The notes beneath the pieces were generated by a model that did no database searches, was not told the origin of the DNA, and saw nothing but the letters and a program-made list of their open reading frames with translations. Of a stretch of 50,658 nt of DNA, positions 5,435-36,082 are shown one piece after another; position 1 is the first letter of the stretch, and each line of letters opens with the position of its first letter. The stretch covers positions 1 through 50,658 of the IMG/VR virus record IMGVR_UViG_3300025834_000001. One strand, 5' to 3'. A program made the position numbers and the translations under genes. Source of the DNA: a virus.

Positions 5435-5487
5435 AAGTGGTATATCCGTGGAATGGATAGATATATAATTGAATAGGAGGTTTGGAT

Positions 5488-5931
5488 ATGCGAGACGCTA
5501 AAGGAATGATGTTTAGCCAGATTGGGCACTGTGATGTAATTTGTATAACTACTAATGGATTTGTCAAAGCAAACGGACAGGCTGTAATGGGCAGAGGTTG
5601 TGCTTTAACCTATAGTAAAATGTATCCCGGGGCTACTAAAATCCTGGCTAATAAGATACAGAGGAATGGTAACCATGTTTCTAAATTGGGCACTGATAAA
5701 GGCACTGAATTCTGGTCATTTCCTGTTAAACATAATTGGTGGGAAAATGCTGACTTAGAGCTAATCGAACGATCTGCCAGAGAATTAGTAATATTCGCTA
5801 ATGATGATCCTACTTGGACTAAAATCCTAATCCCTAGACCGGGTTGTGGTAATGGACACCTTGACTATGCTGTTGTTAGACCTATTCTAGCCCCTATATT
5901 AGACGATAGATTTTTAATTGTTACATTTTAA
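5488..5931 (+). CDS. Macro-domain protein (ADP-ribose binding/processing)
   Basis: 147 residues from ATG 5488, which has AGGAGG 7 nt upstream; the TTG at 5482 is too close. The sequence covers one macro domain: a first strand HCDVICITTNGFVKANG, then the loop GQAVMGRGCALTY, FPVKHNWWENADLELIE in the middle, and the late loop PRPGCGNGHLDY. Macro domains bind ADP-ribose and often hydrolyse ADP-ribose phosphate esters or protein and nucleotide ADP-ribose links. In a phage this could reverse host ADP-ribosylation or act in NAD/tRNA-end metabolism; the target is not shown. It leads a long run of small early genes. Confidence 0.9.
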   Translation: MRDAKGMMFSQIGHCDVICITTNGFVKANGQAVMGRGCALTYSKMYPGATKILANKIQRNGNHVSKLGTDKGTEFWSFPVKHNWWENADLELIERSARELVIFANDDPTWTKILIPRPGCGNGHLDYAVVRPILAPILDDRFLIVTF

Positions 5932-10231: not shown

Positions 10232-10650
10232 GTAAAGTAAAAGAAGCAATTGAAGCTACCAAAAATGATCTACCAACTCTTAAAATGATGGTAAAATTAG
10301 CTCACGCAATTGAGATACTCTTATCATTGACAGACGACTTCAAGGAATTCTTTCCAAACAAAATGAAACCAAACTGCAAAGACTGTGACGACTGTAAAGA
10401 ATGTGGAGAACACACCGCTGCAGAACTTGACGAGCTAATGGGAGAACTTGATAAACTTGTAAGTGCAGACATATCTAAACAAAAGAGCGTTATGTTAGCC
10501 TTCGATCCAAAAAGAAAAGTAGCTACAATTGACGCAAAAGAATCCGATTTTGATCCGAAATTCCTAACGTATTTACTGGAAAGCATAGGGCTTCCAAAGA
10601 ATACAAAAGTTGAATTTAAAGTAGCAAAGGAGAAAAGCAATGAAAACTAA
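10228..10650 (+). CDS. Cys-cluster hypothetical protein at the start of the Ubl cassette
   Basis: 140 residues. ATG 10228 overlaps the 3D gene stop (ATGA) with AAGGAG upstream. An N-terminal helix (PTLKMMVKLAHAIEILL) is followed by a short Cys knot CKDCDDCKECGEH, a helical acidic part, and a C-terminal alpha/beta piece (ESIGLPKNTKVEFKV). The Cys cluster may bind zinc, which in this setting invites comparison with RING-like E3 elements, but the spacing does not match a RING and I do not claim one. It overlaps the next gene by 11 nt. Confidence 0.75.
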   Translation: MSKVKEAIEATKNDLPTLKMMVKLAHAIEILLSLTDDFKEFFPNKMKPNCKDCDDCKECGEHTAAELDELMGELDKLVSADISKQKSVMLAFDPKRKVATIDAKESDFDPKFLTYLLESIGLPKNTKVEFKVAKEKSNEN

Positions 10651-11032
10651 AATCATGGGCAACATCGCCATCATCAGCTCAAGTCTAACCCAGACAGAAA
10701 TCAAGGGCCTTGAAAGACATAATCCAGACGCTTTATGTCTAAAGGACGAAAAGGGTAGCACTAAATATAGAATCACTTCTACATCTGGTGCAGCATCAAT
10801 CACAAGAAACGGAGTCTCCTTCAATGAAATAGATGAAACTACTGGACAGGTTTACATCACTGTAGCACTCCCAGTTGGAACTGAAAACAAAGCTGTTTAC
10901 ATTGCTGAAAACTTTGGCAAAGCATTGACAGATTTGAGAACAGTAGAAGCAGCTGCATCAGAAGCATTCGCTGAAGTAACAGCCAACATCGAAGCAGTAG
11001 CTGACGCTATTGACGTAATCGAAGCAGTTTAG
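10640..11032 (+). CDS. Hypothetical partner protein of the Ubl cassette
   Basis: 130 residues, starting inside the previous gene after AAGGAGAAAAGC. The first part (MGNIAIISSSLTQTEIKGLERHNP, then ALCLKDEKG) is beta-rich. The end is an Ala-rich helix (AAASEAFAEVTANIEAVADAI) that could form a coiled coil. It sits directly before the Ubl gene and ends 34 nt from it, so it may be a conserved part of the conjugation locus, perhaps a substrate or adaptor. The family is not recognised. Confidence 0.75.
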   Translation: MKTKIMGNIAIISSSLTQTEIKGLERHNPDALCLKDEKGSTKYRITSTSGAASITRNGVSFNEIDETTGQVYITVALPVGTENKAVYIAENFGKALTDLRTVEAAASEAFAEVTANIEAVADAIDVIEAV

Positions 11033-11066: not shown

Positions 11067-11300
11067 ATGATCAGAGTAACTATTGGAACAAACACGGACA
11101 GGACAAATGTAGTCCTTGACCCTAACACAACCCTTAAAAAAGCACTTGAAGATGCAAATGTCGATATCGGCGTGTCTTCAATAACACTTGATGGTGCAAC
11201 CTTAAAACCAGGTGACATCAACAAGACATTCGCAGAAATGGGAGTAACTGAAAACTGCTTCCTAATTGTCTGTGCAAAAGTGGAAAATGCAGTAGCATAA
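11067..11300 (+). CDS. Ubiquitin-like (beta-grasp) protein
   Basis: 77 residues after AGGAGGAAATTCTA. The order of elements is that of ubiquitin: strand IRVTIGTN, strand TNVVLDPNTTL, helix KKALEDANVD, strand SSITLDGATL, the GDINKTFAEMG turn, and last strand CFLIVCAKV. It lacks a C-terminal Gly-Gly and ends VENAVA, so conjugation would need a different tail or trimming after the last strand. Genes for E2-, JAMM- and E1-like proteins follow in the same direction, which makes this the probable modifier of the system. It resembles the short Ubl (protein C) of PRTRC-type plasmid cassettes. A terminator follows directly. Confidence 0.75.
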   Translation: MIRVTIGTNTDRTNVVLDPNTTLKKALEDANVDIGVSSITLDGATLKPGDINKTFAEMGVTENCFLIVCAKVENAVA

Positions 11301-11441: not shown

Positions 11442-13073
11442 ATGATAAACCTAACTCAATATTCCAAAGACTACATTGACGACTTAATTTCCAAAGACGT
11501 AAAGAAAGTTGTGAGTAATAATGTATACTCCAGTTTAAGTTGGTCTCATAATGGTGTATCTTCTTTTGCATATGACTATCCTATAAAACTGGTAAACACA
11601 ACAATAGATGAACTATTTCGTGAGATTAAAGAGCCGGTTAGCTTAAGACTTGACAAACTAAACCTCACACAAGAAGACGTAGACCTTTTAAAACATAACC
11701 CAACAAACCCTGGGAGCTGGCCTTATCCATTAAGAGAAACCATACGTCGTGTAAACGAATATAGATTTAATACTCCAGCAGCAGACAGAAAATTTCCTCA
11801 TATTACAATAGCACATATTACAAAAGGATATTCTGGGATCAACTCGATTGGACAAGAATCTTCCAACAATGCAATACCTTTTAAAAGATTAGAATCAGCT
11901 ACGACACTACTGAAACAAAATGGAAAGCACAGACACGCAATGCTTGAAGTTGGCCCATCACAATACCTGTACATCACTAATCAATGGGGCTCAACATTAA
12001 TGTTTGCCATGTATTCTTGTATGCTCTTACTATTCAAACATATGTTATCAGAGGAAACAGCCGCAAAAGCAGAAGAACTAGCTCTTGATATATTCACAGA
12101 CAGGATAAGTACAGAAGCACTGGTTCATAAACTCGCTTCTATAATCGTAGACCCTAAAATACAACAAGAGCAGTTTAGAAAAAGCATCCAAGGTATCGAA
12201 TACAAATTACGAGTTAAAGAAAAACAACAATATGAAAAAGAATTAACTGACGTTACAGTTTCTCTACGAGACTTAGAAATAGAAATAACAGACTTGTGGA
12301 CAAAACATTCTTTCCTTAATCGACAAATAGATTATCGTAATGCATCTCCAGACGCTGAAGATGAAAGCAACGCACTATCTGAATTTATTATGAGAACTCA
12401 AGAAATAGTAGGCCAAGCATATAACCCAGAAACTCAAGTGCTTCAACTCGCTATTGTAAACGAATTGGAATATTATGAACGAGACGCATTCATAAGCTCT
12501 ATCAGAAATAAAGATTCAAGATGGTGGGAAACAAACGACTTTAGTATGTCTTCACTTTTAACTTTAATTATTTGTTTCTTAACTGAAAAGTATTCTTTAA
12601 TAACTAAAAGCATGATAACCCTAAACTTTGCGAGAAAAGAAGTAAATAGAGATTCCTCAACAGCAGCTCTAGCTGAATTAAGAGAATACATGGGAATGTC
12701 ACATCCGCATATTATGGGTATTAGTTGCTTTGGTTCAAACAGAAGTCAGATTATAGCAGGAATGGGGAAAGGAAACTACATAGGGTCTGTTGCCCAAACT
12801 ATAGCTGCCTGTAAAAACATGAATATGACTGACAGAATGGCTATAGGAAAACTGCTAGAGTACACAAACATTGCAATCGTTCAAGGTAAGCCATTTATCA
12901 AGAATAACAGAACTGGAGAAATATTAGATTATGCACACTTCTATGAGGAAAATAGAGATAACATTCAGCTTATGTTTAACTCAGAAGCAACTGCAAAAAG
13001 AACAATGACTCAATCAAAAGAAGATGTAGAAACTATCGCTGATATATTTGATAAGGAGGAAGATAATGAGTGA
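11442..13073 (+). CDS. E2-like (UBC superfamily) protein with long N-terminal extension
   Basis: 543 residues after GAAAGGAGCTATATA. The C-terminal region holds SHPHIMGISCFGS, with His421, His423 and Cys429. This matches the E2 pattern in which an HPN/HPH turn is followed a few residues later by the catalytic Cys, as in prokaryotic E2 families of PRTRC-like loci. Around it, LREYMGM and the helix-rich end fit that fold. The first ~300 residues are not a known domain; a coiled coil spans about 250-300 (RVKEKQQYEKELTDV). Predicted role: accept Ubl thioester from the E1-like protein and pass it to a target. It overlaps the JAMM gene by 8 nt. The E2 call rests on the motif and on neighbours. Confidence 0.7.
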   Translation: MINLTQYSKDYIDDLISKDVKKVVSNNVYSSLSWSHNGVSSFAYDYPIKLVNTTIDELFREIKEPVSLRLDKLNLTQEDVDLLKHNPTNPGSWPYPLRETIRRVNEYRFNTPAADRKFPHITIAHITKGYSGINSIGQESSNNAIPFKRLESATTLLKQNGKHRHAMLEVGPSQYLYITNQWGSTLMFAMYSCMLLLFKHMLSEETAAKAEELALDIFTDRISTEALVHKLASIIVDPKIQQEQFRKSIQGIEYKLRVKEKQQYEKELTDVTVSLRDLEIEITDLWTKHSFLNRQIDYRNASPDAEDESNALSEFIMRTQEIVGQAYNPETQVLQLAIVNELEYYERDAFISSIRNKDSRWWETNDFSMSSLLTLIICFLTEKYSLITKSMITLNFARKEVNRDSSTAALAELREYMGMSHPHIMGISCFGSNRSQIIAGMGKGNYIGSVAQTIAACKNMNMTDRMAIGKLLEYTNIAIVQGKPFIKNNRTGEILDYAHFYEENRDNIQLMFNSEATAKRTMTQSKEDVETIADIFDKEEDNE

Positions 13074-13770
13074 CAGAGTAATTGACTTAGTCAAAGCCAA
13101 CTGGGATGTATTACTAGAAAAACATGGCAAGTCACTATACGCTATGAGAATTGAAGACATTTATTCTTTAGTAGCACCAAAACCAATGATACTATACACA
13201 CCACTAGCTGAAATGAAAATACACGCTTTGGTTAAAGAAAGCACAATTGAAATAAGCTGGCATGGTTTAGTTGAAAAAATCAACGATATGACCTACCTTA
13301 TCACAGATATCCTAATGTACCCACAAACTTGTACAGCAGCAACAGTAACCACTGACGATGAAAAATACACCAATTGGTTACATAGCCAACCAGATGAAAT
13401 CTTTAACAAGATAAGATACCAAGGACACAGTCATGTTAGAATGGGAGTTATGCCATCCGGAGTTGATCTGAATTACTACAGAGATATGATTAAGAATCTG
13501 AAAAAAGATGACTTTTATCTCTTTGAAATCAGAAACAAAACAAACGAAATGAACATAAGACTGTACCAAAATAATGATATACCAGAATGGTTTGTCAATC
13601 GAGAACTACAGACAACAATAGCAATTAATGGAACTCCTAGTGATGTATATGCTCAAAGAATCATGAGTGAATTCATACAAAAAAAGGAGTATCCAAAACC
13701 CCCCTTGGAAGACAAACTAAACAAAGCACCTAAAACTATTAAAGGTAAGAAAGGGGACATCAAACTATGA
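13066..13770 (+). CDS. JAMM/MPN metalloprotease (deubiquitinase-like)
   Basis: 234 residues from ATG 13066, which has AAGGAGGA upstream; the ATG at 13048 is further inside the E2 gene. The JAMM motif is complete: Glu62 (IEISWHG), then His121-Ser-His123, seven residues, and Ser131-x-x-Asp134 (GHSHVRMG...PSGVD). Such zinc isopeptidases remove or mature ubiquitin-like proteins. A basic tail (KTIKGKKGD) follows the domain. It sits between E2- and E1-like genes, overlapping both, so the three are translated together. Predicted role: trim the Ubl C-terminus or reverse conjugation. Confidence 0.9.
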   Translation: MSDRVIDLVKANWDVLLEKHGKSLYAMRIEDIYSLVAPKPMILYTPLAEMKIHALVKESTIEISWHGLVEKINDMTYLITDILMYPQTCTAATVTTDDEKYTNWLHSQPDEIFNKIRYQGHSHVRMGVMPSGVDLNYYRDMIKNLKKDDFYLFEIRNKTNEMNIRLYQNNDIPEWFVNRELQTTIAINGTPSDVYAQRIMSEFIQKKEYPKPPLEDKLNKAPKTIKGKKGDIKL

Positions 13771-14432
13771 ACTTAAACAAACATAGGGAATTCTTTGATC
13801 CCGTGCAAACAGAATTGGCTATTCATATCATAGGTGTAGGAGCAGTAGGTTCAACCATAGCCGAGCAATTGGTAAGACTCGGACTGGCTTCCTTACACAT
13901 CTATGATATGGATATTGTAACAGAGCACAACCTAACCAACCAAATGTATTACCATCACCAAAAAGGAGTGCTGAAAACAACAGCTTTACGAGAAACATTA
14001 GAACGAATAAACCCAGAGGTATATGTTGTAAAACACGAAAAAGGGTACATCAAACAACCCTTAGGAGGAATTGTTTTCTTATGTGTAGACAGCATCGACC
14101 TTAGACGTAAGATAGTGGAAAACAACCAATATAACCCTAACATTTCCGCAATGTTTGATTGTAGAATGGAATTAACTGGAGCTCAACATTACGCTGCAGA
14201 CTGGAAAGACCCATACTCCATCCAAGTTTTTTTAGACTCTATGCAATTTTCCAGTGCAGAAGCCAAAGCTCAAACACCGGTCAGTGCATGTGGAACATCC
14301 TTAAGTATTAACCCAACAGTTAGAACTTTGAGTAGCTATTGCATAAGCAACTATATTAACTTCATAAACACAGGAAAACTGAAGAAGTTTATAATATTCG
14401 ATGCTTTCAGCTACGACACTTACGCAATTTAA
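13767..14432 (+). CDS. E1/ThiF-like Ubl-activating enzyme
   Basis: 221 residues starting in an ATGA overlap. It shows the adenylation Rossmann motif IIGVGAVGS (21-29), the acidic strand YDMDIV (46-51), NLTNQ (55-59), and a catalytic-Cys candidate Cys175 in PVSACGTS. It lacks the CxxC zinc pairs of MoeB/ThiF, as do several minimal E1-like proteins of PRTRC and phage Ubl loci. It should adenylate the Ubl C-terminus with ATP and pass it to the E2-like protein. It is the last gene of the cassette; a structured RNA and the reverse transcriptase gene follow. Confidence 0.85.
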   Translation: MNLNKHREFFDPVQTELAIHIIGVGAVGSTIAEQLVRLGLASLHIYDMDIVTEHNLTNQMYYHHQKGVLKTTALRETLERINPEVYVVKHEKGYIKQPLGGIVFLCVDSIDLRRKIVENNQYNPNISAMFDCRMELTGAQHYAADWKDPYSIQVFLDSMQFSSAEAKAQTPVSACGTSLSINPTVRTLSSYCISNYINFINTGKLKKFIIFDAFSYDTYAI

Positions 14433-14850
14433 AATGTACTAAATGATACAACGCAATTTAAGTTTCAATCCTAAGCAATGGATTCAACTTAGCTTTATGT
14501 GTTCCACTAAAGTATCAAATGCTTCGGAGGGGAAACACCCGCAGATGACGCCCCAGTAGGAGGCCGCATCCTGTGGGTCACCTGGAGATGGATATGTTAT
14601 AGCGTAATTCCGGTTAAGATTCAATAGTTTTTACAAATTATTAACCCAAAAGGGCTACGAACTATAACATTTCAACACAATTCCCCTAAGAGCATCAGAC
14701 ATTCAACAGTCTGCAGAGCCAACAGCTCTCAATTTCATCAGAACTACCAGCAAAAGTTAACTTACTTCTGGCACCCTGAGCTAAGTTGATCACCGTGCAG
14801 CACTGCATACTCCCGTATACCACAGTTTAGGTTGTATCAAACCAAAAGAA
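14433..14850 (+). ncRNA. Structured non-coding region upstream of the reverse transcriptase
   Basis: About 430 bp without a gene but full of stems. They are AAGTTTCAATCC/GGATTCAACTT (14460-14490), the bulged hairpin family member (14493-14512), CCCGCAGATG/CATCCTGTGGG, ATGTTATAG/CTATAACAT enclosing GGTTAA/TTAACC, CAGAC/GTCTG, AGAGC/GCTCT, and TGCAG/CTGCA. The 11-mer ACGCAATTTAA is repeated at 14422 and 14451. GC content rises above that of the neighbours. This is best read as a long structured RNA linked to the RT, possibly its template or primer RNA. Borders are approximate. Confidence 0.6.
14493..14512 (+). repeat. Bulged hairpin, copy 1 of 3
   Basis: CTTTA-T-GTG pairs with CACTAAAG around a TTC loop, leaving one unpaired T. 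The same stem with one bulged base recurs at 16074 and 16421. GTATCA and then GGGGAAACACCC follow, as they also do after copy 3. Confidence 0.6.
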
Positions 14851-14863
14851 AGGAAGTACACAA

Positions 14864-16021
14864 ATGTTTTATTTAACTTACAAAAGAACCATAACACAAC
14901 GACCTACACCAGCACCATCAATAGAGTATTTAATAAAAAACTTCCATAACGTAAATCAAACCCCAGTTTACCCACTAGATCCTATCCCATCATTTGCAAC
15001 AGCAACAAAAATAATAGACCATATAAGCAATACAATGATAGATACTTACGCACCTTATATTGCTCAGCAAAAACTGATTGCACTATGGAACGAAAGTAAG
15101 TACCTACTGGATGAAGATATGTCCAAACATTATTACTCTTTCTTAATCCCAAAGAAAACAGGTGGTCAAAGAAAAATCATGGCCCCCAACGACGAGCTGA
15201 AACATTACTTAAGACGCTTTGTAGATATTATACAAGACGATTTTCACATCTTATTTCATGACGCAGCTTATGCTTATACTAAAGGTCGGTCAACAACTGA
15301 CGCAGTTAAAAAACACCAAAACAATGAAAGCCAATGGTTCTTAAAGATAGACCTTAAAGATTTCTTTCCGAGCTGTTCATACAATAAAGTTAACACAGCA
15401 CTACAAAGTATATTCCCATTATGTTGCCTTTATGATAAAGTAGAAACCAAGGAAGCTCTTGAAGGAATGTTAAGATTATGCTTTGTAAATGATGAACTTC
15501 CACAAGGTACCCCAGCAAGTCCGTTACTAACGAACCTGTTAATGTTACCTCTGGACTACACCATCAAAAATAGATTCAAAGACTTCAACAAAAGCTACTT
15601 TGTATATACCAGATACGCAGATGATATCTTAATATCTTGTAAATACAATTTCAATTGGAGAGACGTTGTAAAAGAATTAGATCATGTTCTAAAGACAATG
15701 GGCTTAACCATTAACACAGAAAAAACAAGATACGGTAACCGAAACGGAAGAAACTGGAATCTCGGATTAATGCTTAACAAAGACAACCAAATTACAGTTG
15801 GGCATAAACGAAAGAAAGAAATCCGAGCAATGATTCACAACTTCCTAGAAGATTACCACAAAGGTGAACCGTGGTCGAAGCAGGATACACAAATATTCCT
15901 TGGACAACTCAGCTACGCTACACAAGTGGAACCAGATTATTTCAACCATGTTATTAAATTAGCAGGCCATGGACGAAAATATGACCTCAGAACAGCTTCA
16001 TTGCAAATTCTGAAAAGCTAA
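14864..16021 (+). CDS. Reverse transcriptase, retron/group II-like, flanked by structured RNAs
   Basis: 385 residues after AGAAAGGAAGTACACAA. RT motifs in order: GGQRKIMAP (100-107), a KGRSTTDAV segment (140-148), FLKIDLKDFF (159-168) with the first catalytic Asp, LPQGTPASP (212-220), YADD (251-254), and a KT-containing motif D (about 283-288). The GLMLNK...VGHKRKK segment follows. QGTPASP is typical of retron and group II-type RTs and excludes the diversity-generating type. No maturase X domain or endonuclease domain is present, so a group II intron is unlikely. It sits directly after the Ubl cassette and is enclosed by two long structured non-coding regions. Its exact RT class cannot be set by eye. 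Confidence 0.9.
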   Translation: MFYLTYKRTITQRPTPAPSIEYLIKNFHNVNQTPVYPLDPIPSFATATKIIDHISNTMIDTYAPYIAQQKLIALWNESKYLLDEDMSKHYYSFLIPKKTGGQRKIMAPNDELKHYLRRFVDIIQDDFHILFHDAAYAYTKGRSTTDAVKKHQNNESQWFLKIDLKDFFPSCSYNKVNTALQSIFPLCCLYDKVETKEALEGMLRLCFVNDELPQGTPASPLLTNLLMLPLDYTIKNRFKDFNKSYFVYTRYADDILISCKYNFNWRDVVKELDHVLKTMGLTINTEKTRYGNRNGRNWNLGLMLNKDNQITVGHKRKKEIRAMIHNFLEDYHKGEPWSKQDTQIFLGQLSYATQVEPDYFNHVIKLAGHGRKYDLRTASLQILKS

Positions 16022-27784: not shown

Positions 27785-30700
27785 CTACCTATAGTAATAA
27801 AACATATCTTTCAGTCTAAACTGTAACATCTTCGGTGTTAGCTTGGTCATTCTCATAGATTGTTTACTGTTACCTTTCTTACTGTAATGTTTCTTAAAGA
27901 AAGATTCATAACGACCAGCCTTCTGGTTAGGGTAATACTTCTTAAAGTATGATCGTCTTCCACTCTTGCTGTATGCTTTACCTGCCCCCGAATAAGAACT
28001 GTACTTCTTGCCACTTGATTTCTTCTTTGGACTTCTTGGTTGCCATCTCATGTTTGCTCCAAATACACTTGGTGCGATCTGGGATAGAGCTTGAGATATA
28101 GGGTGCCCTTCTAATCTTTCAGAATACCTTGGTATCTGCTCTCCAATACGTTGAGCTAGTGGCCCTATCGCTGGTAGATATGCTGCAGCCATTTGAAGAT
28201 TGGTTTGAGCTTCTTGATCTTGCATCGCTAACAACATCGCTGTAATAGGATACTTCAACCCAGCATTTACCCTGTTCCACATCGATCCATCTATCGTACC
28301 CTCGTCTGTTCTGAGAGGGGGCTGTGTTAACAGGTTATACACATCCATATACGACGGATTCAACTTCAATGTCATGTTGGTATCTTCAAACTCTATATTA
28401 CCTTGAAGGAGACTATACTGTAGTGACCTATTATTTTCTAGTTCTTCCTGTGGAATAGAATCAAAATTCCAGATAGGCCTCATAGTATCTCCCATCATAC
28501 TGAACAACCTAGGATTGTTACTCATGACATCTATCCAAAACTCCAAGTTCCTCATTGTGAATGTATAGAACGGGATTACTAACTCAGCGATATATTCTGA
28601 AGGGTTCTTCAACCCATATTCAAAATGCGTTTTAGCTACCATTGTATACGCTTCTGATTGTGACCTACCACCTTTTTCAAGTGCCCATAAATACTCAGCA
28701 TACCGGGCAATTGATTCTACCTTTTGAGTAGGCTGTAACATAAACTCTACACCTATGTTTGCTGTCTGCCAAAGCTCATGTTCTACAGTCCTGTCTTTAG
28801 AAGCAATCATTTGCTTGTAGTAGTCTATACTTAATTCATCACCTTTTTCTCGGGCTTCTTTAAGTTTATCTCCCCAACCTTTATAAGTCTGGTTGAAGGA
28901 TTCCTGGTATGCCTTATTCATCTCAGCTGCTTGTCCTGCGGCTGGGCCATCTTGATGAAAAATATGAATTCTGCTAAATTCTTCTCTAGTCATTTTAGAT
29001 GGTTGTGGATTAGCACTAGAGAAATACCAATCAATACTTTGTAATTGGATTCTATTATACTTGCTATGGCTAATTATGTCTTTTAGTGCAGTATTATATC
29101 GACCTTCATCTCGTAAGGCTCTACCATAGAATGCCATCATTTCTAAAGGGCTCTCTGTGACAATTGCATTCTTTACGAAAGCATCTACAGCATTACGGAA
29201 TACAGCACCTCCTGTCATTAGATACCCCATCTTAGATAGATAGGTAAACTTCTGTACAGTTCTTAACCACATATTATCAAAATGGAAATCATTGATTGTT
29301 TGGAACGCTTTACTGTATGTCTGGTAATGCATGAACACTGGATTAAGTTTACGAGCTGCTGCTAAATCAGCCTCATTCCTAATCATAAGTTCTACTACAC
29401 GAGCTCCTGTCTTTGACTTAGGGTCTTTTATAAGTGCTACAAGTCTTTGTTCTGGAGCTGCCTTCAATGCTTTTACAATTTCTATATCATCCATTTTTGA
29501 TAACAGCCCTGTATTAATACTATGCATTTCATCGAAGAATAATTGCATGTATCCTACAACAGCATCTACAGTCATAGCATGATACTTAGCACTGTTTATT
29601 AAGCCTTGTGCCATGGAACCGGGGTACCCTTGCTGGAATATACGACGGTATTTGGCTGAGCCAATAGAGGAAGTGAATGTATCTGAGGCATCCATCCGAG
29701 TGTGATGTAACAGTTCGTCAGACTCTGGTAGAGCTTGACGTAATCTATCGGAGAATGTGTTATAGTAATCCTCATATAAACTAGGGTTGGCGATCTCTCC
29801 CATGGAGAAATCAATTTTATCCCCAACCAAAATCTCTTGCTGTGCATGGACATCCATGTATAGTTTAGATAACTCAAGATTACCCGTCAGTTTTGATTCC
29901 TTAAGGGCTTGGGCCATGTTCAGTCGTGGTAGAGTGGTTGGCACAACACTGGAATCTGGTCTAACACGGGAAAGCACTAATCGAATTTCATCCCCTATGA
30001 AAACCTTTTTAGGGTTATTAAATTTACTATTATACAATTTTATAAGATGGGAGTTAAGAAAGTCTTCCAATACTTTTGGATCCCCCAGCTTTCTAACTGA
30101 TTTACTAGCTTCAAATAAACAACTGTCAATTTTTTCTTTGGTTGCTCTTAACGCTTTAGAGGCATCTGTAACTTCTATATCTGCTTCCTCATGTAGCCTA
30201 TTACGAATTTCTATTAAGCCTTCTTTTATTTCATCCCAGTTTTTGTACTGTTTGCCTGTCACTAAATTGGCTATCTCGTTATATACCTCTGGTGTTTTAG
30301 CTATGACATCTGGGATAGTGTGTTGATTCACAATATCCTCTGTGACTGTAACCATATTACTTTCAAACTCGATACCAGTTCTAGCTGTAAATTCTGGAGT
30401 GAGTTTCTTTTGGAAAGCAACAAACATATCTACAACATCCATGTCTTGCTCAAACCCTAGTATGCATATCTTCATCATACGCTTACTTCTTAACAATGCC
30501 CATGCCAATGTGTCTTCATCAAAGGATAATACTATCTTCATCTGCTGTCTTGCCATTGCATGTTGTACTGCTTTATGATAGCTCATGTATTTTTGGAATC
30601 CTTCGGCATCTACGGAACCATCCCCTTTAATAAATGCTCTAACATCTTTAGCAATCTTGCGTCCTAACATATAGGATGGTTTCAGTAAGGCAGCTCTTTT

Positions 30701-33700
30701 GTCATATAGTGCTCTTGCAGCCTCTCCTAAAGAAGCTACGTTTGCAGCTTGGTGCAGAACATTCATGAAGTCGGCCTGTCTTGCGTACACATCTTCCACA
30801 GCATCTATGATTTTAACAAGGTCTACTTGTGGTGTGTTAACGCTGACAGAGTCTATCAGTTTGTAAATCTGGTCAACGTCAAATTCATCCACAGGGCGTT
30901 CCTCATTATGGAACTTATTAAACTCTTTATTAAATTCATCCATCTGTCTTGCACGGAAGTTCAATTCATTCTCACTAAATACTAGCTTTCTTGAGTTCTT
31001 GAAATCAAGTAATAGTTTGACTACAGCTTTAGAGTCTGCGTCAGTAAGTAGGTCTAGGGCTGCACGGAACTGCTCTCCCATTGAACTTTTTAATAGGAAC
31101 CTTGCAGTAGCGTAATCTACCAAAGTATCCTTATTTAATTTAACATGTTTTAAATAAGGGTGTGCCTTGATCATATTGGCTACTAACTCATTTATCTCTG
31201 GTGTGAACGGGTTACGTTTGAACAGAGCTGTGTTTGCAATACTGTCTGCTGTACGCCCCACAATATTAATAACCTTACCAAAGGTAATGATATACTGTTT
31301 ATCATCTACGATACGTAGGATATTCTGGATATCATCTACTGCAATTCTAGAAACCATTATCGGGTCGTAGTTCTTTTTAATTCCGTATAGTGGAGCTGGG
31401 TTTAAATGTTTCACACCATCAGCATCTACATAGCTTCTGTAAATCTGGTTAATATTAATAGGCTCATATATTGCAGACCTTGTGGCTAAAATTGCATCAT
31501 CATATTGTGCACCCCTTTTAGCAATGACATACTGGTGTGCCATAGCTCTATTAGAATTTTTAATACCCAAATACACCGACCTTAATTCATAAGCCAGTGT
31601 GCTTAAATTTTTCAATAGTGGAGCTGATACTCTAAACCCATCGTGCTCAAGTTCGTACTTTTCAAAAGCACCTTTAACATTGTCTATTAGATTTAACAGC
31701 TTGGAATCGGGCAATTGCAACAGGTCTAGCTCAAAGTTAGAGTCTCCAGATACCAATGCTTTCTGCCTATAAAATAACTTCTGTGTTAAAGCAGACAGCA
31801 CATGCTTCTGTTCTCTACTTATTTCAGCAGCTCCTAGCTTCTTTTTATACAACTCCATAGCATCTACATGGGATACGTTCTTGCTTTGTAATAATGACCT
31901 CATTGCATTGATACGAGTTACCTCTACTAAGAATTTCTCTGGGCTTAGATCTATCCTAAGCCTAGCTTCTTCTCGATCAAGTATTTTCTTAAGGAACGGT
32001 AAATCGAAGTCTCCACCATTCCATGTAATAAATCTTACTTTACCTGTTTCCCCAGGACCCCCAATACGAGCTCCTATCTTTTTCTTGTAACTAAACATTG
32101 GAGCTAACGCATCTTCAATTAACTCATACTGTGCTTTGTCATGGTGTGTGGCAGTTGACTTCATATACTTAGCATATACTTTCTCATATGTCGTCTTGGG
32201 GTTTTTCTTAAATGCCTTAATGAAGAACTCATTTTCACTATACAGTTCCTCCATAAGTTCTGCACTTGGTGGTCTCTCTGGCATTTGTATAACTTCATTA
32301 ACATCAACACCCTTACTACCAGAAGCTCTCAAAACTAATTCAGTTACATCTCCGTTAGGTCTACCGTCTGTTTCAATATCAAAGTAGATTGGGCGTATGC
32401 CTTTTTCTTCCATCTCTTTGATTAACTCTGGGAATTCTCTTTGAGTTATAAGTTCAAGTGCATGTGTGTCCCCTCTGCCTGTATGTGGGGTTCCCTCTAC
32501 TTGGGCTAAAAACTCTGGGTCAAGATAGAATAAATCCTGCTTGTAAGACCTATCTTGCAATATGGTTTGCAGTTGAGTTTCCGTATCTTGAATGATATGG
32601 TATACTGCATTGCTTATATCGTCATCTGTCATTTCACTTGTTATTTTATTACGAGCCGAACTATGTATAGAGTTTAGAAAGGCTACTCTTACATCCGGGG
32701 CAACTACTTCTGAAATTCTACCGTATACTTCAGAAACAAAATCTCTACTGTTGGCGACACTACTTTGTATCATAGTCATTGCATCTGTTAATTCAGCTAC
32801 TTCTTCTATTCCTTTTGTAGTGGTGTCTACCATATTGATTTCGTCAAGCACAGCCTCCATAGCCTCATGAACATTAGACTCAACCAACATAGTTTCAAAC
32901 CCTTGCTGTTGGTCAAATTTATAAGTGTACCAAACACTTTTCATGTTCATATTCCCTATAGGAGAGTGTATCAAAGAATCGCTTAATTCGTCAATCATAT
33001 CCATCATCTTGTATGCATGAGTGGCAAATTCATCTTTAGTAAATGGTAGTTCTAGGAATGCATTAGTGGTTTTATCTTCTTTTATCTTTCTAAGAGTATG
33101 CTCCATACTTGTTTTTATACTTCTTAAGACAATTAAGTATTCTTTGACTACAGTTACAGTCTTTAAATTTTTATCGTCAAAGGATTTTAAAGCATCTGTG
33201 TATCTACTCCAAGTTTGTTCCAAGTACATAGGGTCTTTAATAGGGGCCCCTTTAGTAATTTCATCCCCTTGTATCAACTTATCTCTATACCCTGTTGGAG
33301 AGTCAGCGTCACGAACAACACCTTTAACTCCAACATCTGCATGGTCTATAGGTATGTCATTTGCAGGTGTGTCGGTGTATTTACCAACTACATCTCCAGT
33401 GGAGCGTTGTATAATGTCCCCTTTATTAGTAAGTATCTTACCTACCTGTTCCTCGGGCACAGCTTTTGCAATATTACCTAGGTATATTTGGTTTATTAAA
33501 TTCTTATTAAAGGTGGTTATGTTAACCCCTTTAGGTATCTGTATCTTATAAGTAAACTCTTGGAAGTGTTTCGTAATATCAAAAGGAACCTTAGTAAACT
33601 TTGCATTAGCTTCACCTGTTTTAGTTAGCGTATCCTTGATTAATTTGAGCATAGCAACTTCATCTGGAATTTCTCCATTGGCTCCGATTGTCACACGCTG

Positions 33701-36082
33701 TGCGTCACGAGCTTCCTTGATCGCTGCCTTTAAATATTCGATATGGACTTCTTGCTGTGTGATAGTTTCTATATCCAACAATCTTTGGAGTATATTATTA
33801 GGGCCGCCTTGCTTCAATGGAGACCTATCTAATAATGTAGCGTATTCTTCTCTAAGATTCTTCAAAGCTGTTTCAGCGTTATCCAACGCTATAGACGCTT
33901 CTTTAACTTTATCATGTGCTGCTTTTGCTTTTACGTTACTTTTAATACTATCCTGCTGTCCTTCTGCACTTAATAAATCAGCTTTAGCTTTAGCCACTTT
34001 ATCCATGGCGACAGGAACCTCAGTAACAGAACGCCTATTGACTTCTAACATTGCTTCTTCTGGAGTTGCAAACTTTAATTTATATAATGTAGCTTCAACC
34101 CAGTGTTTGGTGTTAGTATATAAGTCTTGGGTAGATTTAGACATTTTGGTAAAACCCTCTGATCGAACAACAGTATCTAATACTCTATCAATTCTAGATA
34201 AATTTTTAGTTCCTTCCTCACCCATTAATTTTTCTGCTAATCTCTGCATTATCTTCTGCTGTCTGATAAATGCAGGGGGAACGATTGGATCCTCACTTAA
34301 GTTCTTAGTATAGTAATTGATATCGTCATAATGTTTTGCCATAGCTCGTTTAAATGCTCTGTCAAAGTTAGCTTCTGCTCGAAGTTCTTTATACACCCCT
34401 ACCCAGTAAGTGTGGTATCTCTCATACATTTCTGGATGATCCACAGCCAAATCTCTTAATTTACGTATTAAGTCTACCATGGTTGTAGCCTCTGGGTGGA
34501 GCTCTCTTACCTTTTGATCTACCAAAGTCCGCTGCATCTGAGATGTCATTTCAGAGTTTCTGGACGCAGCAAAACGGATGTCTCTCAACATCTTATCTAG
34601 ACTTGCAGCATTATGGGATATGCGATCATAATACTCTTTGAATTTAGTGTCTAATGCCATTGGAGGTCTATCATTACTTTTCATATATTTTAGAATTGCA
34701 TCGGCTCCTGCATCATCAACTAAAAATATATCTCTTATATTCCCCCGTAGTATATACATATTTTCTTGTACTGTATGTACCTCGTCAAACAAGCCACCTC
34801 TTAAGCTGTAAAGTGTTTTCTTAACTTCAGCAGTGTTAGACCTTATGGACTCTCTCAATAAACTTTCGTGTATTGCTTTGTAATCCATATCATCGCCTGT
34901 CTTGACTAGAGCTTGATTCAATGGCAATATTCCTCGTTCCATTGCGTCAAGAGCATCAACAGCACGTAGTATATTTAATGTGTTACGGGGAGTAAAGAAT
35001 GATTGTGCAATATTAACCATTCTGTTATTAGCTAATTGTTTTGCACCTCTAATGCCCTTGTATAATAAGTACCCTGTTGCTCCAACCGGTGTTCCGTTCA
35101 AAGCTCCTAGTAACATATTCTTCTCAAAGGCTTGTGCAGGTGCCAGAAGTTTAGATGTACTTTCTAGGATACGAATAGATTGGTCATCCAAGGCTTGTTT
35201 CCTCAGCAGTTCCCCAATCTGTTTCAAGGCATCCATACCTTCTGGGGTAGCCATATACCTTGCGGCGAAGTCATTGGACGCATGAAACTCTATACTTTTA
35301 ACTATGGCTTCATCAAATGTTTTATAGATTCCATTCTGTACAGCTTCGGTTGCTTCCTTAACTGTTTTCTTTATAAACTTTTCAGCCCCAGCTTCGGCCA
35401 CATCTACAACACCTTTAGCAGCCACATCTCCTAATGCAGTAGTCATTGCTTTTCTTAGACCTGCTTTAGTACCGGCTGTTACAGCTGACTTGGCCCCGAG
35501 TGTAACCCAGTTTAAAGGGTCTATGATAACTTCCATAAAGATATCTGCTGCCAGATTACCTGTATCGAAGTCGAAGTTCTTTCTACCCGGAGTATCATCA
35601 TCCCAACCTATGGCTTGTTTGAACCCGTCCCAACCGTAGCCTTGTGCTACAGCTTTGATAGGATTGGCTAGAATATCTATATTCTCTGTAAATGACATAA
35701 GGTTATTCAACGCCAAAGCAGTCCAATCATTTTCTTTGATTGGGCGTATGGTTGTTTTGTATAATACTTCAGCCATTCCTGGGATAATATTAAGGATTGG
35801 AATATCAGACATTCCACCCCACTTAAAATCTCTGGTTAAAGAGCTTGGATTTAATAGTGTGGAGAATATATCTGCAAAGGAATTCAGTTCAGTTGGATCA
35901 TTGTAGTTTATAAAAGGACGGTCTGGCATATCCCAAGGGGTTGACTTCCAGTAACCATAGGGGTTCTTATACTTATTATCATAAGGGTTCGGATATTTGT
36001 CACCATATGGAGAAGAAGAACTCTGGTATGAGTCCTTCTTTTCATATGAATTAGGATACTTATAGCTTACGAATTTAGCCAT
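27785..36082 (-). CDS. Giant internal virion protein with embedded DEDD exonuclease-like domain
   Basis: 2765 residues after AAGGAGAGAAAC; about 16% of the genome. The start is a Tyr/Pro/Lys low-complexity tract (NPYDNKYKNPYGYW), followed by long helical regions. At about 1230-1410 are YFDIETDG (Asp1235, Glu1237), FITWNGGDFDLPFL (Asp1360) and SHVDAMELY (Asp1407), the order of a DnaQ/RNase H_2-type 3'-5' exonuclease. The last ~80 residues are strongly basic and Ser/Tyr-rich (RSPKKKSSGKKYSSYSG). Position at the end of the late operon and size match ejected internal proteins of podoviruses. I see no RNA-polymerase or lysozyme motif. The exonuclease is inferred from motifs; ejection is inferred from context. 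Confidence 0.85.
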   Translation of the reverse strand: MAKFVSYKYPNSYEKKDSYQSSSSPYGDKYPNPYDNKYKNPYGYWKSTPWDMPDRPFINYNDPTELNSFADIFSTLLNPSSLTRDFKWGGMSDIPILNIIPGMAEVLYKTTIRPIKENDWTALALNNLMSFTENIDILANPIKAVAQGYGWDGFKQAIGWDDDTPGRKNFDFDTGNLAADIFMEVIIDPLNWVTLGAKSAVTAGTKAGLRKAMTTALGDVAAKGVVDVAEAGAEKFIKKTVKEATEAVQNGIYKTFDEAIVKSIEFHASNDFAARYMATPEGMDALKQIGELLRKQALDDQSIRILESTSKLLAPAQAFEKNMLLGALNGTPVGATGYLLYKGIRGAKQLANNRMVNIAQSFFTPRNTLNILRAVDALDAMERGILPLNQALVKTGDDMDYKAIHESLLRESIRSNTAEVKKTLYSLRGGLFDEVHTVQENMYILRGNIRDIFLVDDAGADAILKYMKSNDRPPMALDTKFKEYYDRISHNAASLDKMLRDIRFAASRNSEMTSQMQRTLVDQKVRELHPEATTMVDLIRKLRDLAVDHPEMYERYHTYWVGVYKELRAEANFDRAFKRAMAKHYDDINYYTKNLSEDPIVPPAFIRQQKIMQRLAEKLMGEEGTKNLSRIDRVLDTVVRSEGFTKMSKSTQDLYTNTKHWVEATLYKLKFATPEEAMLEVNRRSVTEVPVAMDKVAKAKADLLSAEGQQDSIKSNVKAKAAHDKVKEASIALDNAETALKNLREEYATLLDRSPLKQGGPNNILQRLLDIETITQQEVHIEYLKAAIKEARDAQRVTIGANGEIPDEVAMLKLIKDTLTKTGEANAKFTKVPFDITKHFQEFTYKIQIPKGVNITTFNKNLINQIYLGNIAKAVPEEQVGKILTNKGDIIQRSTGDVVGKYTDTPANDIPIDHADVGVKGVVRDADSPTGYRDKLIQGDEITKGAPIKDPMYLEQTWSRYTDALKSFDDKNLKTVTVVKEYLIVLRSIKTSMEHTLRKIKEDKTTNAFLELPFTKDEFATHAYKMMDMIDELSDSLIHSPIGNMNMKSVWYTYKFDQQQGFETMLVESNVHEAMEAVLDEINMVDTTTKGIEEVAELTDAMTMIQSSVANSRDFVSEVYGRISEVVAPDVRVAFLNSIHSSARNKITSEMTDDDISNAVYHIIQDTETQLQTILQDRSYKQDLFYLDPEFLAQVEGTPHTGRGDTHALELITQREFPELIKEMEEKGIRPIYFDIETDGRPNGDVTELVLRASGSKGVDVNEVIQMPERPPSAELMEELYSENEFFIKAFKKNPKTTYEKVYAKYMKSTATHHDKAQYELIEDALAPMFSYKKKIGARIGGPGETGKVRFITWNGGDFDLPFLKKILDREEARLRIDLSPEKFLVEVTRINAMRSLLQSKNVSHVDAMELYKKKLGAAEISREQKHVLSALTQKLFYRQKALVSGDSNFELDLLQLPDSKLLNLIDNVKGAFEKYELEHDGFRVSAPLLKNLSTLAYELRSVYLGIKNSNRAMAHQYVIAKRGAQYDDAILATRSAIYEPININQIYRSYVDADGVKHLNPAPLYGIKKNYDPIMVSRIAVDDIQNILRIVDDKQYIITFGKVINIVGRTADSIANTALFKRNPFTPEINELVANMIKAHPYLKHVKLNKDTLVDYATARFLLKSSMGEQFRAALDLLTDADSKAVVKLLLDFKNSRKLVFSENELNFRARQMDEFNKEFNKFHNEERPVDEFDVDQIYKLIDSVSVNTPQVDLVKIIDAVEDVYARQADFMNVLHQAANVASLGEAARALYDKRAALLKPSYMLGRKIAKDVRAFIKGDGSVDAEGFQKYMSYHKAVQHAMARQQMKIVLSFDEDTLAWALLRSKRMMKICILGFEQDMDVVDMFVAFQKKLTPEFTARTGIEFESNMVTVTEDIVNQHTIPDVIAKTPEVYNEIANLVTGKQYKNWDEIKEGLIEIRNRLHEEADIEVTDASKALRATKEKIDSCLFEASKSVRKLGDPKVLEDFLNSHLIKLYNSKFNNPKKVFIGDEIRLVLSRVRPDSSVVPTTLPRLNMAQALKESKLTGNLELSKLYMDVHAQQEILVGDKIDFSMGEIANPSLYEDYYNTFSDRLRQALPESDELLHHTRMDASDTFTSSIGSAKYRRIFQQGYPGSMAQGLINSAKYHAMTVDAVVGYMQLFFDEMHSINTGLLSKMDDIEIVKALKAAPEQRLVALIKDPKSKTGARVVELMIRNEADLAAARKLNPVFMHYQTYSKAFQTINDFHFDNMWLRTVQKFTYLSKMGYLMTGGAVFRNAVDAFVKNAIVTESPLEMMAFYGRALRDEGRYNTALKDIISHSKYNRIQLQSIDWYFSSANPQPSKMTREEFSRIHIFHQDGPAAGQAAEMNKAYQESFNQTYKGWGDKLKEAREKGDELSIDYYKQMIASKDRTVEHELWQTANIGVEFMLQPTQKVESIARYAEYLWALEKGGRSQSEAYTMVAKTHFEYGLKNPSEYIAELVIPFYTFTMRNLEFWIDVMSNNPRLFSMMGDTMRPIWNFDSIPQEELENNRSLQYSLLQGNIEFEDTNMTLKLNPSYMDVYNLLTQPPLRTDEGTIDGSMWNRVNAGLKYPITAMLLAMQDQEAQTNLQMAAAYLPAIGPLAQRIGEQIPRYSERLEGHPISQALSQIAPSVFGANMRWQPRSPKKKSSGKKYSSYSGAGKAYSKSGRRSYFKKYYPNQKAGRYESFFKKHYSKKGNSKQSMRMTKLTPKMLQFRLKDMFYYYR

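Follow-up and report, generated by a model that had tools for sequence, protein, structure and literature searches.

The 543-residue protein studied here, which we call E2L, is probably a stand-alone E2-like conjugating enzyme of a ubiquitin-like (Ub-like) system carried by phages or prophages and perhaps coupled to a retron-like element. Its gene lies in the window (the whole 50,658-nucleotide stretch of viral DNA that was analyzed) within a cassette of five genes, behind which a structured RNA and a retron-type reverse transcriptase (RT) follow. The features of this region are listed below, with the evidence for each in brackets; loci outside the window carry L numbers.

10640-11032, + strand: UP130, a 130-aa conserved companion protein; in L020 and L038 it follows the Ub-like protein within one fused chain
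11067-11300, + strand: Ub-like protein, 77 aa, with tail K-x-x-N-A and no GG (19-row alignment, tails, weak Pfam matches)
11442-13073, + strand: E2L, 543-aa E2-like protein (open reading frame, 18-row family alignment, models)
13066-13770, + strand: JAMM (JAB) metalloprotease, 234 aa (conserved residues, PADLOC)
13767-14432, + strand: ThiF-family E1-like enzyme, 221 aa, with an invariant Cys175 in SAC (Pfam, solved relatives)
14444-14839, + strand: non-coding, retron-RNA-like stretch between E1 and RT (fold z -4.7, inverted repeats)
14864-16021, + strand: retron-type RT, 385 aa (PF00078, PADLOC, gene order)

The window, which is classed as a virus record, comes from a tailed phage: it matches profiles for DNA helicase, primase, DNA polymerase, major head protein, tail fibre and endolysin. 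The E2L gene sits in a rightward gene block upstream of the replication genes. The E2L open reading frame is a real gene: a Shine-Dalgarno-like AGGAG stands ahead of its ATG, and the opposite strand is stop-rich throughout. Elsewhere in the window, a 149-aa protein (5482-5931) looks macrodomain-like by eye, and the late block holds an open reading frame of 2765 aa (27785-36082, - strand).

The cassette and the retron-like element behind it

Single-gene scans of viral contigs for close relatives of E2L, JAMM, the Ub-like protein and E1 found none, nor did tblastn of E2L in phages and plasmids. Relatives were reached by an E1 search in phages, which found the same cassette in MT835544.1, a phage-type contig from human feces, and then by a two-sequence Ub-like profile, which retrieved 15 loci from genome contigs, whose titles name Clostridia-type MAGs, plus another 3 from viral contigs. 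Searches of a class and of a family contributed three further genomes (G292, G134 and G528); the cassette is rare, with matches in 3/391 genomes of the class and 3/297 of the family. E1 matches in an S. saprophyticus plasmid and a Staphylococcus contig were set aside, as they are located among cofactor genes.

The order UP130, Ub-like, E2L, JAMM, E1 is found, with all genes on the same strand, in 15 loci (the window, L001, L004, L005, L006, L008, L010-L015, L020, L021 and L038). A sixteenth cassette (L019) is cut inside E1, and two further loci (L009 and L037) stop within JAMM or behind it. Several loci depart from this arrangement. E2L and JAMM are missing between Ub-like and E1 in L017, while a bacterial contig (L039, 8636-11196, - strand) holds a frameshifted remnant of the whole cassette including the RT. 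In L007 (6273-7924), E2L is broken after about 116 aa and a serine-recombinase-like open reading frame follows, which may reflect an insertion or a chimeric contig. One genome has two Ub-like genes (L016, 1455-3105, and L018, 3744-4459) with no E2L, JAMM and E1 behind them; L016 has an RT upstream instead.

The designation of the 77-aa protein as Ub-like is putative and draws on its size, its position and Pfam matches at E-values of 0.02 or worse (DUF2604, best 0.023, in 10/19 members; TUG-UBL1, 0.076, in 1/19); a search of the PDB with it gave no match. Nearly all rows carry the K-x-x-N-A tail, with L021 deviating, and of the 19 unfused genes nine end exactly at the tail alanine and five one residue past it. 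In L020 (6914-7606) and L038 (3881-4492) the Ub-like protein and UP130 form one open reading frame, Ub-like first, with the amino acids ...DNA followed directly by AK at the junction, an arrangement that likely marks the end of the modifier and ties UP130 to the pathway. There is precedent for a C-terminal alanine, since the cGAS-like proteins that Cap2 modifies terminate in Gly or Ala (PMC10097602).

The two enzymes downstream of E2L carry invariant residues. All 16 JAMM proteins compared have E62, H121, H123, S131 and D134, satisfying the pattern E...HxH(x7)SxxD, and PADLOC matched the window's copy to JAB (2.7e-4). The E1-like protein, which matches PF00899 (2.5e-17), shows a GxGxxGS loop; its Cys175 is invariant (15/15), and its nearest solved relative is UBA5 (6.7e-11), with a weaker match to Cap2 (4.1e-6).

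The RT matches PF00078 (1.4e-26) and the PADLOC retron model RT_II-A (4.4e-57), and the best 25 of its 87 PADLOC matches are all retron RT models. An RT follows E1 in 16 of the 18 loci with DNA beyond E1 (the window, L001, L004, L005, L006, L008, L010, L012, L014, L015, L017, L020, L021, L038, L039 and L054); only its start lies within the contig in L010, it is in fragments in L039, and it stands further off in L004 and L054. In L038 (7955-10281) the RT gene is split by an open reading frame of 306 aa, perhaps a mobile insert. Retron RTs carry a VTG motif. At that position NLG was found in 10/10 rows read, and the alignment shows CLG in L001; the element is therefore called retron-like. It resembles retrons in that a retron-type RT stands behind a structured RNA bounded by terminal inverted repeats, and differs from them both in this motif and in its partner genes, which are those of a Ub-like pathway; we know of no retron type with such partners.

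Most loci have a gap of about 280-480 bases between E1 and RT (L020 leaves no room for an RNA before its RT), and in the window this stretch contains the following elements.

14444-14452, + strand: a1-like arm, TGATACAAC (reached in 7/300 shuffles)
14493-14512, + strand: msr-like bulged hairpin, then TATCAAA (recurrence across gaps, covariation)
14831-14839, + strand: a2-like arm, GTTGTATCA (inverted repeat)

The best inverted repeat coincides with the gap ends in 9/11 gaps, failing to do so in L005 and L038, and its arms change on both sides among loci (TTTTGTAAT/ATTACAAAA, GCCTGTAAT/ATTACAGGC, TGATACAAC/GTTGTATCA). Shuffled gaps reached a comparable terminal repeat in 0-22 of 300 cases for the window, L001, L012, L014 and L017, and in 51-79 of 300 for L004, L006, L008 and L015. 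The hairpin, in which a single bulged base separates stems of 5 bp and 3 bp and the loop has 3 bases, was present in 12/13 gaps compared with 64/2600 shuffled gaps, and a TA[AT]CAAA-like stretch lies 3' of most copies. Across 11 rows, six of the eight pairs show double changes, and covariation was 0.684 versus 0.205 in shuffled rows (0/500 shuffles reached it), with a maximum of 0.182 when slid. These 11 rows were picked by a pairing scan, which makes the pairing counts partly circular, and the fair evidence is accordingly the frequency of the hairpin relative to shuffles together with the TA[AT]CAAA-like stretch that follows it. The rows include L010 as an addition and exclude L038 and L021 (hairpin with the downstream motif missing), L020, L011 and L013, which lack the hairpin, and a further match in the window at 14623; covariation was counted on the hairpin only because a whole-gap MAFFT alignment misplaces L017. 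Folding z-scores were -6.2 for L012, -4.7 for the window, -3.0 for L001 and -2.5 for L014; the minimum-energy fold of the window's gap does not contain the msr-like hairpin, and Rfam gave nothing at its thresholds. The stretch between E1 and RT has the layout of a retron RNA.

It is possible that the RT and RNA constitute an independent retron-like element that merely adjoins the cassette, and two loci speak for this, as they have the cassette with no RT detected behind E1 (in 3.2 kb at L011 and 0.8 kb at L013). We consider it rather unlikely, given that the order is kept in 16 of 18 loci that span phage-type, viral and bacterial contigs and extend even to the remnant in L039. Moreover, when one RT of the clade was searched in the 391 genomes, three of four strong matches lay with the cassette and the fourth was on a contig ending at the RT start, so that the clade RT was never found apart from the cassette where the upstream DNA was readable; a fifth match, at 29% identity, was a more distant RT.

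E2L as a two-part protein

Within E2L, the following parts and residues were distinguished.

11442-12344, + strand: residues 1-301, comprising a family-specific N-terminal region (1-237) and a long helix (238-301) (model, column identity)
12351-12989, + strand: residues 304-516, UBC/RWD-type domain (model; RWD and UbcH7 rows lead VIA-align)
12708-12710, + strand: codon of His423, invariant (18/18 rows)
12726-12728, + strand: codon of Cys429, invariant, proposed thioester cysteine (18/18 rows)
12822-12824, + strand: codon of Asn461, invariant (18/18 rows)

The 17 other members of the family (446-733 aa) align with E2L over the whole length, with the cysteine at 365-477, and the length is thus a family trait rather than a chance fusion. 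The longest, a 733-aa relative in L019 (7271-9472), has a long C-terminal extension. Mean column identity over 18 rows is 0.45 for residues 1-237, 0.41 for the helix and 0.50 for the E2 domain. The sequence-only reading had described an uncharacterized N-terminal part of about 400 residues containing a coiled coil. This part is indeed long and common to the family, but it measures about 300 residues, since the UBC-like domain starts near 304 and the E2 fold thus takes in roughly 125 residues ahead of Cys429; of the coiled coil, what the model displays is the long helix alone. In the full-length model (pLDDT 62.9, from 15 rows) the C-terminal domain is good and residues 1-240 are poor, mostly at pLDDT 30-65. 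A MogA/MoaB-like fold for residues 28-212, suggested by the fold search with the full model, was rejected because of this low pLDDT.

The same reading had suggested that E2 and E3-like functions are fused in one chain, with the N-terminal domain recognizing targets in place of an E3. Every relative keeps the N-terminal part and the cassette showed no separate gene for an E3, but a Pfam search of 16 E2L members matched no E3 domain in any of them and the region is modeled at low confidence. In addition, Cap2 works without an E3 (PMC10097602), and binding of E1, UP130 or the RT-RNA complex would be an equally plausible role for the N-terminal part. We therefore regard the fusion as unlikely. The N-terminal domain and the long helix most likely serve to recognize a target or a partner, for which UP130 and the RT-RNA complex are the first candidates.

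The C-terminal domain carries the case for E2-like identity, which is well supported. In the 18-row alignment the sole invariant residues are Phe42, Glu211, His423, Cys429 (located in SHPHIMGISCFG) and Asn461, followed by Gly431 (17/18) and Pro422 (15/18). Of the three residues that the sequence-only reading had named for testing, His423 and Cys429 are constant, whereas His421 is peculiar to one row, the position being Asn in 15 and Gln in two; the common family motif is NPHI-x4-C-[IL]-G. The isolated model of residues 304-516 (pLDDT 78.3, pTM 0.78) runs helix, two strands, helices, two strands, Cys loop and helices. Its first 12 VIA-align entries (Z 3.8-4.9 over 84-126 residues) include four titled RWD domain (RWDD3, RNF25 twice and GCN2) and two titled UbcH7, along with chains of the SEA complex, RQC, SCF-RBR and Spc24-Spc25, the matched parts of which we take to be RWD-like or UbcH7. 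Atg10, an E2, was matched at Z 2.0-2.4, and the first clearly unrelated row was actin capping protein at Z 3.3; structural re-alignment of the full model gave Z 6.7 for the SEA complex and 5.2 for the RWD domain of RWDD3. These modest Z values are insufficient alone and become convincing jointly with the invariant Cys/His pair and the neighborhood of E1, JAMM and Ub-like genes. Foldseek returned nothing significant for the full or the 304-516 model (E-values above 0.5 for the latter), and Pfam E2 families had no match among 16 E2L members at E 0.1, in single-sequence scans of a kind that miss remote members. A profile search of solved structures with E2L yielded CopM only (1.7e-3), and no E2.

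These structural matches raise a further explanation, namely that E2L ends in an RWD-like adaptor domain without activity, where Cys429 and His423 have a structural or metal-binding role and any conjugation proceeds straight from E1. RWD domains and UbcH7 both share the predicted fold of residues 304-516; RWD domains, which make up the best structural rows, are inactive, unlike the role proposed for E2L, while UbcH7 has about 150 residues and lacks the N-terminal domain. The classical HPN motif is also absent from the E2L family alignment. On the other hand, Cys429 and His423 are retained in 18/18 rows although columns of the domain average only about 50% identity, and RWD domains lack the cysteine according to Iyer et al. 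(2006; PMC1779556). An inactive adaptor is thus quite unlikely, and the active E2-like reading is preferred. Neither of the outcomes named beforehand as refuting it, loss of the cysteine in homologues or a C-terminal region without a UBC fold, was observed.

Proposed pathway and relation to known systems

What the data display directly is the gene content and order, the conserved residues, the E2-like model and an RNA structure with covariation; from these we infer a reversible conjugation pathway, which we consider likely as a sequence of steps. The E1-like protein would adenylate the C-terminal alanine of the Ub-like protein and hand that protein over to Cys429 in thioester linkage, His423 and Asn461 also belonging to the active site. 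E2L would transfer the Ub-like protein to a target without an E3, its extra domain acting as the selectivity module, and the JAMM protease would remove the modifier from the target; JAMM may also free the modifier after ...DNA where Ub-like protein and UP130 form one chain. The RT and RNA probably yield a DNA-RNA product, and its state might switch the modification, or the product might receive it; the model for such gating is the gating of effectors by retron complexes. Coupling of the pathway to this product, as switch or target, is put forward tentatively as a hypothesis. So too, only as a possibility short of an even chance, is the complete picture of retron-gated Ub-like conjugation, in which the DNA-RNA complex controls or joins a phage-borne E1-E2-JAMM cascade with a targeting domain on its E2 and a modifier ending in Asn-Ala.

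The cassette could also be a diverged form of PRTRC, which we take to be the type 6d operon of the literature. E2L would then correspond to the helical F and the E2 protein B together, UP130 to E, the Ub-like protein to C and JAMM to A, and it is only if E2L equals F plus B that the cassette fits the PRTRC order. The PRTRC operons retrieved have the order E-C-F-B-A-ThiF, plus variants, the same in Cupriavidus and Burkholderia plasmids, and our E1 matches PRTRC ThiF by hhalign (98%, E 2.6e-13). This is the only profile that matches, and ThiF-like E1s in general would do so; E2L, its E2 domain, Ub-like, UP130 and JAMM compared with F, B, C, E and A all gave hhalign probabilities below 3%. Furthermore, E2L has its histidine before the cysteine, whereas PRTRC B has none there and a THPN-like stretch after the cysteine, and the modifier tail here is NA, not G. 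Iyer et al. (2006; PMC1779556) describe five operon types, of which type 6d has Ub-like, helical, E2-like, JAB and E1 genes. The likeness to PRTRC therefore lies in separate neighbors of these kinds in the same order on mobile elements, while the cassette differs in the E2 histidine, the modifier tail, its long single E2 and its retron-like RT and RNA; descent from PRTRC is very doubtful. Sulfur transfer of the ThiS/ThiF type in place of conjugation is highly improbable, since E1 is a ThiF family member but the Ub-like protein is missing the GG tail, E2-like and JAMM proteins are present and the nearest solved E1 is UBA5.

Among other systems, CBASS Cap2/Cap3 resembles the proposed pathway in its E1, E2 and JAB chemistry without an E3 and in accepting a C-terminal Gly or Ala on the modified protein (PMC10097602). 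It differs in that Cap2 unites E1 and E2 in one protein, a cGAS-like enzyme takes the place of the modifier and no RT is present. Bacterial BilABCD (ISG15-like) operons encode separate Ub-like, E2, E1 and JAB proteins with a short E2, and to our knowledge contain neither an RT nor UP130. Retrons are known with many effectors, and bacterial Ub-like systems are known in defense. A Ub-like cassette paired with a retron-like RT and its own structured RNA was not found described: the open-access literature, searched by title and start of abstract, gave no combination of a retron or RT with Ub-like, JAB, E2-like or ThiF proteins, "reverse transcriptase" occurs nowhere in the text of Iyer et al. (2006; PMC1779556), and a retron paper (PMC12548924) mentions neither ubiquitin nor ThiF. 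If the proposal is correct, the system would tie protein tagging to reverse-transcribed DNA and define a retron type that has such tagging as its effector. It would also provide an E2 that works without an E3 and has an additional domain of its own, as well as a tractable case for what phage-borne Ub-like systems modify.

Similar gene orders in other phages

Ub-like, E2-like, JAMM and ThiF-looking genes were also seen in the same order in Bacteroides phage crAss001 (L035, 1265-5675) and Dulem virus 41 (L003, 2266-5696); the E2-like motifs there read HSH...PC.G or SHC...CCLG, and both the Ub-like and the E2-like assignments were made solely by eye. Xanthomonas phage PhiXhv-15 (L002, 1733-5612) encodes, ahead of a ThiF gene, a protein of 892 aa that contains a helical stretch and the motif IHPHM...SLCLGS. 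An hhalign comparison of the E2L family with this protein and with the 373-aa Dulem virus 41 protein did not confirm kinship, and the E2-like motifs of the two therefore remain a lead. Ahead of the 892-aa protein, which has a near-identical counterpart in Erwinia phage Ep032, comes one of 141 aa with a terminal GG.
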